Assembly (NCBI RefSeq): GCF_000010425.1
Contig: NC_008618.1
Coordinates: forward strand, 427,946 to 491,945
Source of the DNA: Bifidobacterium adolescentis ATCC 15703
Lineage (GTDB): Bacteria; Actinomycetota; Actinomycetes; Actinomycetales; Bifidobacteriaceae
DNA length: 64,000 nucleotides
Direction: 5' to 3'
The notes beneath the pieces are model-generated. The model made no database searches and was not told where the DNA came from. It was given only the letters and a program-made list of their open reading frames with translations. The translations under genes were made by a program, and so were the position numbers. Below are positions 10,981-15,256 of the stretch, in pieces (positions within the stretch are counted from its first letter, which is position 1; the number at the start of each line of letters is the position of its first letter).

Positions 10981-13161
10981 ATGATTGAATCCGCCGCACG
11001 AAGGTTGGCTTCGGAACTGGTCGATCGTCGGGAGTCGATCAACCGGGAGCTGAGCCGTAATGGCGTACGGTTCGGCATCTACAAGAACGGCGAGTACCAT
11101 GACCGGCTGTTTCCGTACGATCCGATTCCGCGCATCATCGAATCGGACGAATTCGACAGAATGGAAGCCGGACTGAAACAGCGCGTCAACGCGTTGAACG
11201 CCTACCTGCGCGACATCTACTCCGACAAGCAGGCCATCAAAGACGGCATCGTGCCGGAAGAATACGTGTACACGTCCGCGGGATACTTTCCGCAAGTCAA
11301 CGGCGTGACACCTCCGGGCGGCGTGTTCGCGCACATCGCCGGCGAGGACCTGGTGCAGGGGCAGGACGGGCAATGGTGGGTGCTGGAAGACAATCTGCGC
11401 ATTCCATCCGGTGCCAGCTATCTGCTGTTCGCCCGCGATATCGAACGCAGAATCACGCCCAGCCTGTTCCGCAACGTACGTGTGCGCGACAATCGCGATT
11501 ATCCACGACTGCTGCGCCAATCCATGGATTTCGTCTCCACCGACGGCATAGCAGTGGTGCTCACCCCCGGCAGGTACAATTCCGCGTTCTTCGAACATGC
11601 ATACCTGGCCGAGAAAACCGGCGCGGCGCTCGCGTTCCCCGAAGACCTCGAAGTCGTGGACAACAAAGTGTACTTCCTCGACTATGCCGGCAGGAAACAC
11701 CGCGTCGGCGTGGTCTACCGCCGTCTGTCCGACGAATATCTCGACCCGTTCGCGTTCAACCCGGATTCCGTGATCGGCGTGCCGGGAATCCTGTCCGCCT
11801 ACAGGTCGGGCAATGTGGCGATCGTCAACGCTCCGGGCAACGGCGCGGCCGACGACAAGGCCATCTACTATTTCGTGCCGAACATGATCCGCTATTATCT
11901 CGGCGAAGAGCCGATTCTGCACAATGCGCCGACCTACATGCCGATGTTCGACAAGGACCGCAAGGAGGTACTCGACCGGCTCGGCGAACTGGTCATCAAG
12001 GATGTGGCGGAAGCGGGCGGCTACGGCGTCGTGTTCGGCTCATCGCTCGACCGGTCGCAACGAGAGGAACTGGCCGAACGCATCAAGGCCGAACCGCGCC
12101 GGTTCATCGCGCAGGAGGTCATCCAATTCAAGGACATCGACGTGGTGGACCCCGAAACCGGACAGATGAGCTCACGTAAATGCGACCTGCGCGCCTTCGT
12201 GGTGACCGGCAAGAACACGCACGCATGGTATTCGGGACTGACACGCTACTCGTCCATACCGGGCCAGATGATCGTCAACTCATCACAGGGCGGCGGTTTC
12301 AAGGACACCTGGGTACTGGCCAAAGAGACCGGCGTGGAGCATGATTACGCACCCGGCTCGGAGGTCGTGCGCGTGCTGGAACAGTCCCGCAAGCACTCGC
12401 TGGCACTCGTCACCGCGTCGAAGGCCGACAACCTGTTCTGGCTCGGCCGCTACACGGAACGCGTATTCACCACGCTGAGCCAATTCTTCCCCTTCTACGA
12501 CCGTGTGATGGACACGGATGTGGACGCGTTCCGACCGTTCGCCCGCGCGCTCGACCTGCCGGAGGATTTCGAGGATTTCGACGCGTTCATCCACAGCTTC
12601 CTGTACGACGAGAAGAATCCGGATTCCGTACGCAGCGCCATCGTCTACGCGTTCAACAACGCGGTGATTCTGCGCCCCGAACTTGGTTCTCGCTCGTTGC
12701 AGCAGGTGGAGTTGGCCATGAGCTCCATAGTGGAGGCATCCGAATACGGCGGCACGGACGCGGATATCTTCAAACACCGCGACATCGCGGACAACATGCT
12801 CGCCTTCTGGGGAGGTGTGGAGAATTCCCCCGTCGAACCGACTCTGAAATCGTTCATTTTCGTGGGCAAATATCTGGAACGTCTGGATCTGTACACACGA
12901 TTCGGATATTCCGTGGAAGAGCTCAAGGCGCCGCTCGCCAAACTGGGCAGCTACATCCTGCCGTTGAACGGTCTGCCGGTACCGCAATGCTTCGCCGAAG
13001 GATTGCGCTGGCTGGTCGGCCAGCTGCCGCAGCGGGGATATGCGGAGCTTGCGGAAAAACTGGGGATGCTGCTGAAAGATTTCGATGGGCGCATCTCCAC
13101 GAAGGATCTGAAGGATCTGGGCATGCTCAACACGATGGACATGGACGCCGCGCGACTGTGA
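10981..13161 (+). CDS. Circularly permuted ATP-grasp / alpha-E fusion protein
   Basis: 726 residues. Residues 1 to about 470 form a circularly permuted ATP-grasp domain (DUF404/DUF407 type): note GVTPPGGVFAHIAGEDLVQ, the VLEDNLRIPSGASYLL block, and SSRKCDLRAFVVTG. From about residue 478 (ASKADNLFWLGRYTERV) it is an alpha-E (DUF403) helical domain, which is a separate gene in most genomes. ATP-grasp enzymes of this class are predicted to ligate amino acids or build small peptides; that prediction comes from comparative genomics (Iyer and Aravind's amidoligase survey) and the substrate is unknown. A transglutaminase-like gene follows after 104 bases and is its usual partner. GGAAGGGAGCGCGGAACG precedes the ATG. 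Confidence 0.88.
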   Translation: MIESAARRLASELVDRRESINRELSRNGVRFGIYKNGEYHDRLFPYDPIPRIIESDEFDRMEAGLKQRVNALNAYLRDIYSDKQAIKDGIVPEEYVYTSAGYFPQVNGVTPPGGVFAHIAGEDLVQGQDGQWWVLEDNLRIPSGASYLLFARDIERRITPSLFRNVRVRDNRDYPRLLRQSMDFVSTDGIAVVLTPGRYNSAFFEHAYLAEKTGAALAFPEDLEVVDNKVYFLDYAGRKHRVGVVYRRLSDEYLDPFAFNPDSVIGVPGILSAYRSGNVAIVNAPGNGAADDKAIYYFVPNMIRYYLGEEPILHNAPTYMPMFDKDRKEVLDRLGELVIKDVAEAGGYGVVFGSSLDRSQREELAERIKAEPRRFIAQEVIQFKDIDVVDPETGQMSSRKCDLRAFVVTGKNTHAWYSGLTRYSSIPGQMIVNSSQGGGFKDTWVLAKETGVEHDYAPGSEVVRVLEQSRKHSLALVTASKADNLFWLGRYTERVFTTLSQFFPFYDRVMDTDVDAFRPFARALDLPEDFEDFDAFIHSFLYDEKNPDSVRSAIVYAFNNAVILRPELGSRSLQQVELAMSSIVEASEYGGTDADIFKHRDIADNMLAFWGGVENSPVEPTLKSFIFVGKYLERLDLYTRFGYSVEELKAPLAKLGSYILPLNGLPVPQCFAEGLRWLVGQLPQRGYAELAEKLGMLLKDFDGRISTKDLKDLGMLNTMDMDAARL

Positions 13162-13217
13162 AGAATACGTGCCACAGCCATCGCACGGTGCGTGTATAAC
13201 GGCTAGAACAAGGCCCA

Positions 13218-13234
13218 CGGCGTGGAAAACGCCG
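13218..13234 (+). promoter_or_regulatory. Small hairpin between ATP-grasp and transglutaminase genes
   Basis: CGGCGT-GGAAA-ACGCCG lies in the 104-base spacer. With no T-run it is unlikely to stop transcription, so the two genes are probably co-transcribed. Function unknown. Confidence 0.3.
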
Positions 13235-13265
13235 AAGGAACGACAATAATCGCTGAGGAGACGAT

Positions 13266-14066
13266 GTGAAGAAACTGGTGTTTGACTATGAGATGAAGCT
13301 CTCATTCAGCTCGCCCGTGACCGACCATCGCTTCCAACTGCGCTGCATTCCAGCCACCGGCCCACGCCAGCAGGTGATCGACGTGGCAGTCAAAATCGAA
13401 CCGGATGTGGAACTCGAAACCACCATCGATTCCTTCGATTCCGTGGTGATGACCGGATTCATTCCCGAACCGCACACCATGTTCAACTACTCGGTGACCG
13501 GCATCGCCTTCGTGGACAACGCGCATATCAAATCCGAAATCTACAAGCCGCTGTACCGCTTCAATTCGGCGTTGACAGTGCCGGGGCCGGCCATCGAAGC
13601 GTTGATCGGCATCTGCCATGAACGCATCGTGTCCCTGCCTGCCGACTGCACGCCGATCGACCAAGCCCGTGAGGTGATGGACGAGGTGTTCAAAACGTTC
13701 GTCTACACGCCGGCCTCCACCACCATCCGCACCACCGCCGAGGAAGCGTTCGCTCAACGCAAGGGCGTATGCCAGGATTACGCGCACGTCATGCTGTCCG
13801 TGTGCCGGCACGTCGGACTCACTGCCCGATACATCGCGGGATTGCTCGGCGGCGAGGGCGCCACGCACGCATGGGTCGAAATCTACCATGATGGACGTTG
13901 GGTCGGTTTGGACCCCACACACAACCGTATGGTCGACGACAACTACATCACCATCGCCCATGGCCGCGATTACCGCGACTGCATGCTCGACATCGGCATC
14001 TTCTCCGGCTGCGACGTCAAGCAGGACCAGTGGGTCAACGCTTCCGTGCACGAGCAGGGATACTGA
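13266..14066 (+). CDS. Transglutaminase-like cysteine protease domain protein
   Basis: 266 residues. The N-terminal ~80 residues match the beta-rich domain that precedes bacterial transglutaminase-like proteins (KLVFDYEMKLSFSSPV). The core has a Cys-His-Asp triad: Cys169 in KGVCQDYAHVML, His201 in GATHAWVEIY and Asp216 in GLDPTHNRMV. No signal peptide is visible, so it should be cytosolic. GTG start at 13266 follows GAGGAGACGAT. In the conserved pairing with alpha-E/ATP-grasp proteins it may cleave or remodel the ATP-grasp product; this is inference, and no reaction has been shown for the group as far as I know. Confidence 0.9.
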   Translation: MKKLVFDYEMKLSFSSPVTDHRFQLRCIPATGPRQQVIDVAVKIEPDVELETTIDSFDSVVMTGFIPEPHTMFNYSVTGIAFVDNAHIKSEIYKPLYRFNSALTVPGPAIEALIGICHERIVSLPADCTPIDQAREVMDEVFKTFVYTPASTTIRTTAEEAFAQRKGVCQDYAHVMLSVCRHVGLTARYIAGLLGGEGATHAWVEIYHDGRWVGLDPTHNRMVDDNYITIAHGRDYRDCMLDIGIFSGCDVKQDQWVNASVHEQGY

Positions 14067-14371: not shown

Positions 14372-15256
14372 TTAGGCGAACAGCGCTTCGTCGAAGGAAG
14401 GATAGCCCCAATCAAGCGCCAATTCGACACGGTCCGCAATCAGACCGGCAAGCACGCCCAGGGATTGCGCTCGCGAATCCGTCGACTGTTTTGCATTGGT
14501 GACGCGTGACTGGGAATGATCGTTCGCGGCATTGGAGCTTCCGGCGATTGCCGTTATCTCGCTTCGCGCGCAGTTCATTTCGATGGTGGCGTCGGTCGGT
14601 GCCGTAAGGCCGGTGGCGGAATCGAGCATCGTGTCGGGGTGGGCGAGCAAGGCGGTGGCCTCGTACGTTTTCCTACGATCGTCAATGGCGCCCGAGAAGG
14701 ATGCGAACCGTTGCGATGTGGTCTTATGACGATCGCTGATATCCAGCGTCGCATGGCCGCTGTTGCGGGCCGCCAGCACTTCCATGGCGAATCCGGCACG
14801 GTCTTCGTCCTGCGCGGCGGTGGCAAGGGACTTGGAATCGACGTCAAGCGATTCGACATCGTCAAAACGCGACAGCGTGATCGGCGCGACGGCCACCGAC
14901 AGTTGATCGCCCAGTGCGCGAGCCATATGACGTGCCTGCGCGCTGCGCAACGTGCCTTCGGCAAAACGCGCCGGACATTGCGCCGCGGTGTTCGTCCATG
15001 CGGAGACCGCCTGCTGCGCCGAGAAATAGCGGCGGATGATGTGCTGATGCTGGTCGTGTGCGATCTTGTTATCGGCGGTGGCATCGAAATAGGCCTTCTC
15101 GCACGGGCTTTGCCGTTGTTCGGCTTCAGCCCTGCCTGCGATCCTGGGCATGGAGCATGCCGTCAGCGCCGGCATGAGGATAGCGGTGCAAAGCAATGCG
15201 CAGACGCGTTTCGCGATAAAAGAAACCGAGCGGAAAGAAGGGGTACGTGTCTGCAT
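14372..15256 (-). CDS. Putative lipoprotein of unknown function
   Basis: 294 residues. The N-terminus has basic residues, a hydrophobic stretch and the lipobox LTAC with Cys34, so it is probably lipidated and exported to the outer face of the membrane. The mature part is hydrophilic and mostly helical, with no motif I recognise; a second DxxD-rich middle and a Trp-Gly-Tyr near the C-terminus give no functional hint. The ATG at 15256 has no clear ribosome-binding site; TAGTCT lies 8 bases upstream, so a leaderless start is possible. It is divergent from nusA, sharing a 77-base promoter interval. Confidence 0.8.
   Translation of the reverse strand: MQTRTPSFRSVSFIAKRVCALLCTAILMPALTACSMPRIAGRAEAEQRQSPCEKAYFDATADNKIAHDQHQHIIRRYFSAQQAVSAWTNTAAQCPARFAEGTLRSAQARHMARALGDQLSVAVAPITLSRFDDVESLDVDSKSLATAAQDEDRAGFAMEVLAARNSGHATLDISDRHKTTSQRFASFSGAIDDRRKTYEATALLAHPDTMLDSATGLTAPTDATIEMNCARSEITAIAGSSNAANDHSQSRVTNAKQSTDSRAQSLGVLAGLIADRVELALDWGYPSFDEALFA

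Follow-up and report, generated by a model that had tools for sequence, protein, structure and literature searches.

The existence of bacterial operons that combine a circularly permuted ATP-grasp ligase, an alpha-E protein and a transglutaminase-like protein, often together with the proteasome-like Anbu, was a prediction made in 2009 (by Iyer et al., according to PMC5666114 and PMC6376114). The ATP-grasp protein of Yersinia bercovieri liberates phosphate from ATP, and Anbu gave no peptidase activity in the same work (PMC6376114); Anbu binds proteasome inhibitors (PMC5666114). Nitrogen limitation of Pseudomonas putida raises PP_2686-PP_2688 11- to 37-fold and PP_2685 1.1- to 4.8-fold, likely via NtrB/NtrC (PMC7801951), and two further reports point in the same direction (PMC3325844, PMC8050072). 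Marine metagenomes associate these domains with urea metabolism (PMC3597751). Passages from PMC10318531, PMC8407117, PMC4431377 and PMC3056875 contained nothing decisive. Here we analyse a two-gene version of this set at positions 10,981 to 14,066 of a 64,000-nucleotide stretch of the Bifidobacterium adolescentis ATCC 15703 genome (2,089,645 bases; contig NC_008618.1). This whole stretch is referred to as the window, and its positions 1-64,000 provide the numbering.

The Anbu operon, PP_2685-PP_2688 in P. putida, shares with the B. adolescentis locus its three families and their order, intact ATP-grasp residues and an intact cysteine triad. The B. adolescentis locus is distinguished from it by fusion of the ligase to alpha-E, by a short alpha-E domain, by its position on another branch of the tree and by the lack of a proteasome-fold match in the genome. 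We read the locus as a reduced member of the predicted set, comprising a cytosolic amide-bond ligase and a cysteine enzyme acting on the same kind of bond, and we assign this reading a probability of roughly 0.6. To our knowledge, no product of the system is known. An earlier note, drawn from the DNA sequence alone, had singled out the locus as the window's strongest candidate for an undescribed system. This description is not supported: the gene set was predicted in 2009, PMC6376114 reports an assay of an ATP-grasp member, and nitrogen limitation induces the P. putida operon (PMC7801951).

A fused ligase beside a transglutaminase-like protein

The features of the locus, all on the forward strand, are as follows.

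10981..13161, +, fused circularly permuted ATP-grasp and alpha-E protein, an open reading frame of 726 residues with Pfam profile matches
11014..12321, +, circularly permuted ATP-grasp domain, residues 12-447, from profile and alignment
11386..11394, +, Glu136-Asp137-Asn138, Glu and Asn being candidate metal ligands (ExN motif)
11998..12027, +, Lys340 and glycine-rich loop Gly346-Gly347-Tyr-Gly349, candidate nucleotide site
12184..12192, +, Asp402-Leu403-Arg404
12322..12411, +, linker joining ATP-grasp and alpha-E, about residues 448-477, corresponding in relatives to the point at which two genes abut or overlap
12412..13158, +, alpha-E domain of the short type, from alignment
12439..12462, +, alpha-E signature WLGRYTER, with W487, G489, R490, Y491 and R494 invariant in 37/37 rows
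13266..14066, +, transglutaminase-like (papain-fold) protein, 266 residues, GTG start, Pfam matches
13770..13772, +, Cys169 codon, candidate nucleophile
13866..13868, +, His201 codon
13911..13913, +, Asp216 codon

The fusion described in the earlier note is borne out by profile matches above the Pfam cut-offs within one frame. CP_ATPgrasp_1 (PF04174) scores 506 bits over residues 50-378 and CP_ATPgrasp_2 (PF14403) 464 bits over residues 50-423, the cut-offs being 23.1 and 32, respectively. Alpha-E (PF04168) follows at residues 482-641 with 57.3 bits against a cut-off of 20.8. That this last match covers only positions 6-164 of the 294 in the model is due to a short alpha-E subfamily, 216-237 residues long in 36 relatives, rather than to truncation. 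Modelled alone from an alignment of 37 rows, the alpha-E domain folds entirely into helices (predicted local distance difference test, pLDDT, 84.7; predicted template modelling score, pTM, 0.81).

Fifteen residues (E136, D137, N138, R140, D291, D292, K293, K340, G346, G347, G349, D402, R404, K441 and D442) are identical in 91/91 intact-type ATP-grasps, a set of 13 Bifidobacterium, 31 gut-branch, 4 Campylobacterota, 18 actinobacterial and 25 other sequences that includes the B. adolescentis protein itself; L403 is kept in 90/91. By analogy with other ATP-grasps, we take E136 and N138 to be candidate metal ligands, and K340 with the glycine loop presumably binds the nucleotide. The earlier note had made its reading depend on nucleotide-site residues; as far as their roles can be carried over from other ATP-grasps, they are present throughout the alignment. 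Ligase chemistry is likely for the 726-residue protein. A profile search identified the solved chain 3N6X as the only clear relative of the ATP-grasp domain with a known structure (E 6e-117, residues 13-446). It belongs to the same circularly permuted family, its chain has no alpha-E, and its name, ‘Putative glutathionylspermidine synthase’, is the depositors' label. Glutathionylspermidine synthase was considered for the B. adolescentis protein and set aside: a Pfam scan at E up to 0.001 matched only CP_ATPgrasp and Alpha-E models, not that enzyme's family.

The second gene lies 104 bp downstream on the same strand. Its product exceeds the Pfam cut-offs for Bact_transglu_N (45 bits) and Transglut_core (78 bits), and 3ISR is its nearest solved chain. 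Translation from the GTG at 13266 places Cys, His and Asp at residues 169, 201 and 216, and this triad, reported as intact in the earlier note, is invariant in 34/34 aligned sequences, our own among them. Reading of the N-termini agrees with the earlier view that neither protein carries a signal peptide, and a cytosolic location of the pair is the best reading.

Conservation and history of the pair within Bifidobacterium

Among 99 genomes (61 Bifidobacterium and 38 others), PF14403 matched 52, of which 31 belonged to the genus, with 30 full copies and one fragment (G037). The transglutaminase model matched 51, again 31 in the genus, one of these (G034) below the cut-off; this last match found no support in tblastn with the window's proteins and was taken as chance. 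Both genes are thus present in 30/61 Bifidobacterium genomes, and a single full copy stands alone in none. Median ratios of nonsynonymous to synonymous substitution (dN/dS) across the 30 genomes are 0.10 for ATP-grasp, 0.18 for alpha-E and 0.14 for the transglutaminase (424, 426 and 395 of 435 pairs, respectively, with dS under 1.5); purifying selection acts on both genes. Because the genes are present or absent jointly and their dN/dS is low, the pair is more than a chance pairing: it is a real two-gene unit under selection. The earlier picture of ligase, helical partner and papain-fold enzyme as one unit is upheld by this joint presence and by a recurring gene order, and the question it had raised of fused against split forms across the genus has a uniform answer, since 31/31 open reading frames are fused. 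One copy per genome was seen in this analysis, from which we infer that a Bifidobacterium longum ‘circularly permuted type 2 ATP-grasp protein’ with a log2 fold change of 2.78 in the presence of TNF-alpha (PMC7701253) is an orthologue of the fused ligase.

ATP-grasp, alpha-E and transglutaminase lie on one strand in 30/30 Bifidobacterium loci. The gene truA adjoins the pair in 28 of these (the exceptions being G049 and G059), and nusA also falls within the fetched stretch in 18. On the opposite strand in 9/28 truA-adjoining loci, truA cannot provide the promoter on which the pair depends there. Genomes lacking the pair number 31; truA and nusA stood without the pair between them in 17 of the 20 that were fetched, and in 14 of those 17 no more than 2.0 kb separated the open frames. 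Mapped on a tree of three linked proteins (NusA available for 48/61 genomes and RplQ for 55/61), presence of the pair requires 5 changes, whereas shuffling gave a mean of 20.7. Midpoint rooting puts G019 on a branch that is deep but long; its pair occupies the same site, which suggests early gain followed by several losses. G037, a close relative, retains only pieces of the two genes: a stretch matching fused-protein residues 164-272 is followed immediately by one matching transglutaminase residues 178-264, as an internal deletion would leave them.

One possibility is that the pair is the decaying remnant of an operon that was once larger and has no function in Bifidobacterium. Its absence from 31/61 genomes, the remnants in G037 and the partner hydrolases missing from searches of Bifidobacterium genomes speak in favor of this view, as does G049 (L085), where two overlapping frames replace the single transglutaminase frame and the fused ligase next to them is intact, through either decay or sequencing error. 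Set against dN/dS values of 0.10-0.18 and invariant catalytic residues, we consider a functionless leftover very improbable.

Three further observations concern the site itself. In G059 (L090) the pair lies on a different contig from truA and the nearest species (G007) has no pair; the pair was perhaps moved or regained within the genus. In G051 (L086, contig C1) the block rplQ-truA-pair occurs twice, inverted, with equal scores and a few kb apart; contamination of this genome is 8% and the doubled locus is probably an assembly artefact. Between the pair and nusA, the reverse strand of the window at 14375-15256 encodes a 294-residue protein whose N-terminus resembles a lipobox (LTACSM) and which matches neither Pfam nor NCBIfam; relatives 35-66% identical lie between truA and nusA in 5/5 tested truA loci without an intact pair.

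Relatives, origin and fusion

A profile scan of genome contigs with 22 aligned ATP-grasp domains returned at least 597 relatives, and the analysis covered the 80 best. The nearest among these, 57-63% identical, form what we term the gut branch, with hosts named as Lachnospiraceae, Ruminococcus, other Clostridia, Bacteroidales, one Treponema, one Atopobium and one Methanomethylophilaceae archaeon. Split actinobacterial copies are 43-46% identical and divergent fused copies 30-33%. Bifidobacterium is one clade in the ATP-grasp tree (support 100); the gut branch is its sister group (joint 99) and Campylobacterota join next (100), while 18 split actinobacterial copies form their own clade elsewhere (97). 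This tree was a quick search of 101 rows, including 13 of the 30 Bifidobacterium loci, with 18 ‘other’ rows randomly dropped and long-branch flags on divergent rows only. FastTree analyses, both with long-branch warnings, join Bifidobacterium to all 32 gut rows for alpha-E (support 98) and to 17/30 for the transglutaminase (95).

Given the separate clade of actinobacterial split copies, we reject a vertical actinobacterial origin. Most likely, as far as these trees indicate, the pair was gained by an ancestor of Bifidobacterium from outside the usual actinobacterial line. The gut-anaerobe branch is nearest in all three trees and shares the short alpha-E; unlike Bifidobacterium, it keeps ligase and alpha-E as separate genes, which overlap in 22/29 loci where both are listed (with script-chosen start codons), and most of its loci carry a further pair of hydrolase genes. 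The order ATP-grasp, alpha-E, transglutaminase recurs, with exceptions, in actinobacteria, Clostridia, Bacteroidales and others.

Among the best-scoring loci of the matches listed (ATP-grasp domain hits under 380 residues being left out), fusion of an intact-type ATP-grasp to alpha-E is restricted to Bifidobacterium, occurring in 31/31 open reading frames there (one genome counted twice) against 0/96 elsewhere. The earlier note's statement that alpha-E is a separate protein in most genomes therefore stands for intact-type ATP-grasps. Of 10 lower-scoring ATP-grasps, 7 are also fused, and in these 7 the ATP-grasp is divergent and degenerate. That divergent actinobacterial type resembles the Bifidobacterium locus in its fusion and in an adjacent transglutaminase gene, and differs in its distant position in the tree and in having lost the equivalents of Glu136, Asn138, Gly346, Gly349 and Asp402 in 7/7 sequences. 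On the strength of the tree and the lost residues, we reject a common fusion event. Rv2567 of Mycobacterium tuberculosis is presumably of this divergent type.

A third kind of circularly permuted ATP-grasp, found in other Actinomycetes (L095, L104 and L109), is C-terminal in frames of 844-956 residues and keeps the Glu/Asn and glycine-loop residues; neither alpha-E nor transglutaminase was found within 12 kb of it. One scan of viral contigs with a window protein returned no relative.

Partner hydrolases and a possible amide cycle

Directly downstream of the transglutaminase, gut-branch operons encode two tandem genes of about 310 residues each matching PF24827, the succinylglutamate desuccinylase/aspartoacylase catalytic domain, and sequence searches indicate AstE/aspartoacylase/DoeB-like character. 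The loci concerned are as follows.

L141-L176 (28 loci), L173, L175, L177 and L191, tandem AstE-type genes beside the ligase operon, by PF24827

Such genes occupy 28/33 gut-branch loci, 27 with both copies and L162 cut by the contig end; L158 and L167 lack them despite enough sequence, and L155, L164 and L165 end too early. Three of four Campylobacterota loci and one Desulfuromonadales locus also possess the pair, the frame of the first copy being split in L177 (Campylobacterota). In 22/22 gut-branch loci where both copies could be read, the upstream copy carries HGDE and the downstream copy has Arg for the His of this motif. A second histidine motif, D[IV]H, is found in 24/24 HGDE copies and 0/24 of the others. 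The three Campylobacterota second copies likewise lack such a motif, whereas the Desulfuromonadales second copy keeps both. Because zinc-binding histidines are lost from the second copy, we infer a putatively active enzyme and a catalytically dead twin. No association of AstE with the operon is reported in the subset of PubMed Central searched.

Across 80 loci, 32 contain AstE-type genes, 12 contain Anbu-like genes (10 of these on the ligase strand, with the proteasome fold recognised by weak matches) and none contains both, a mutual exclusion that is confounded because the groups differ in phylogeny. The earlier note's expectation that a proteasome-like protease often joins the neighborhood accordingly applies to relatives; in the B. 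adolescentis genome PF00227 had no match, beside the pair or elsewhere (control positive in 10/14 genomes), with the proviso that a divergent Anbu could be missed, as the model exceeded its cut-off in only 2/4 Anbu-like neighbors. PF24827 matched 0/62 Bifidobacterium genomes (control positive in 2/14), and AstE/AspA-type genes gave no match in B. adolescentis. A profile of the AstE-type twin, searched in 396 Actinomycetota genomes, gave weak matches in 32 (best 65 bits), assigned to other AstE relatives, a similar profile having scored 308-542 bits in gut and Campylobacterota copies.

Our main reading includes a mode of action. The ATP-grasp domain would use ATP to activate a carboxylate as an acyl phosphate and join it to an amine (in the homologue, phosphate release is what has been seen), with the tethered alpha-E domain most likely binding or positioning one substrate. 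The Cys169-His201-Asp216 triad suggests that the transglutaminase-fold protein would act on amide bonds of the same kind, by hydrolysis or by transfer, and the second hydrolase of many relatives (Anbu in some, an AstE-type zinc amidohydrolase and its motif-less twin in others) would be dispensed with in Bifidobacterium. We propose a role that would probably lie in nitrogen or amino-acid economy because the P. putida operon is regulated by nitrogen, which is a weak pointer. Extended to the gut branch, the scheme becomes a cycle in which ATP-grasp and alpha-E write an amide mark that the AstE-type zinc hydrolase and its zinc-motif-less twin erase in place of Anbu; Bifidobacterium would have taken the writer and fused alpha-E to it. 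The eraser would have been lost there or never acquired, so that the cysteine enzyme alone would oppose the writer. We hold this extension to be less likely than not.

The earlier note's small-molecule or peptide tag, made and then cut, is still conjectural. What is joined and cut may be a small molecule or a protein. In the former case, the ligase would produce an N-acyl amino acid or amine that stores nitrogen or serves as a signal and that the hydrolases recover, a real possibility that falls short of even odds. It draws on the AstE/aspartoacylase/DoeB-like partners of relatives, on nitrogen control of the P. putida operon (PMC7801951) and on urease. Strong matches to the urease model PF00449 occur in nine Bifidobacterium genomes, all with the pair (G005, G016, G020, G023, G030, G033, G040, G041 and G047; 9/30 against 0/31, Fisher p 0.0008). 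Weaker matches (E about 1e-5, above the family cut-off) in G031, G044 and G099 were judged to be other amidohydrolases; counting the two that lie within the 61 genomes, the split falls to 9/30 against 2/31 (p 0.02). Since there are only 4 independent contrasts and pair-bearing genomes are also larger (median 2.7 against 2.2 Mb), we do not claim an association, and there is no known metabolite.

In the latter case, an amino acid or short chain would be added to a protein by the ATP-grasp enzyme and removed by a hydrolase partner. Tubulin provides a precedent, where TTLL enzymes add and M14 carboxypeptidases remove, and the AstE-type gene, itself M14-like, is present in 28/30 gut-branch loci with enough sequence. 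AstE-type enzymes, however, usually act on small N-acyl amino acids; no AstE-type gene was found in 62 Bifidobacterium genomes, and there is no known substrate protein. We regard reversible protein tagging as rather unlikely.

Several points weigh against the amide-bond reading as a whole. Neither Gln nor Glu stimulated phosphate release by the Y. bercovieri protein (PMC6376114). The authors of PMC5666114 make the case for Anbu as a protease that degrades proteins and regard a role in peptide synthesis as less likely. In keeping with the earlier note, the searched PubMed Central subset reports no ligase product for any family member. The full-length model of the 726-residue protein was poor (pLDDT 62) and was not used. 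No relative of the alpha-E fold could be named: Foldseek gave no convincing match (best E 0.36), a profile search of the PDB reached E 1.3, and the best VIA-align 2 hit (Z 9.8) was a designed protein, at a level common for helical bundles. Bifidobacterium is sister to the gut branch rather than nested in it, so that the direction of transfer is not proven. Of 33 gut-branch records, 30 are titled metagenome-assembled and a 31st is named as one, and single host labels (archaeon, Treponema, Atopobium) may therefore be binning errors; in the two isolate genomes of the branch (L174 and L176) a break divides the ATP-grasp frame, and the rest of the operon is present. Finally, the Y. bercovieri operon proteins gave no specific interaction (PMC6376114), which would suit separate action of an ATP-grasp enzyme and a general cytosolic cysteine peptidase or deamidase that are neighbors by history. 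The four Campylobacterota loci, where no same-strand transglutaminase lies beside the intact ligase and three keep the AstE pair, fit this too. Joint presence and absence in Bifidobacterium and a gene order that recurs across phyla oppose it, and we hold separate action to be improbable.

Taken together, our findings do not add a new kind of system to the gene set predicted in 2009. What is new is the placement of the Bifidobacterium genes beside the gut branch, the fusion involving an intact ATP-grasp and the AstE-type pair in gut-branch operons. For a widespread bacterial family, Bifidobacterium offers a tractable entry: the genus is a cultivable gut inhabitant, its version comprises two genes at a single site, and related species have that site without the pair. 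The relatives in turn supply a candidate eraser, and this AstE-type partner would narrow the chemistry to N-acyl amino acids or amino-acid-tagged proteins.

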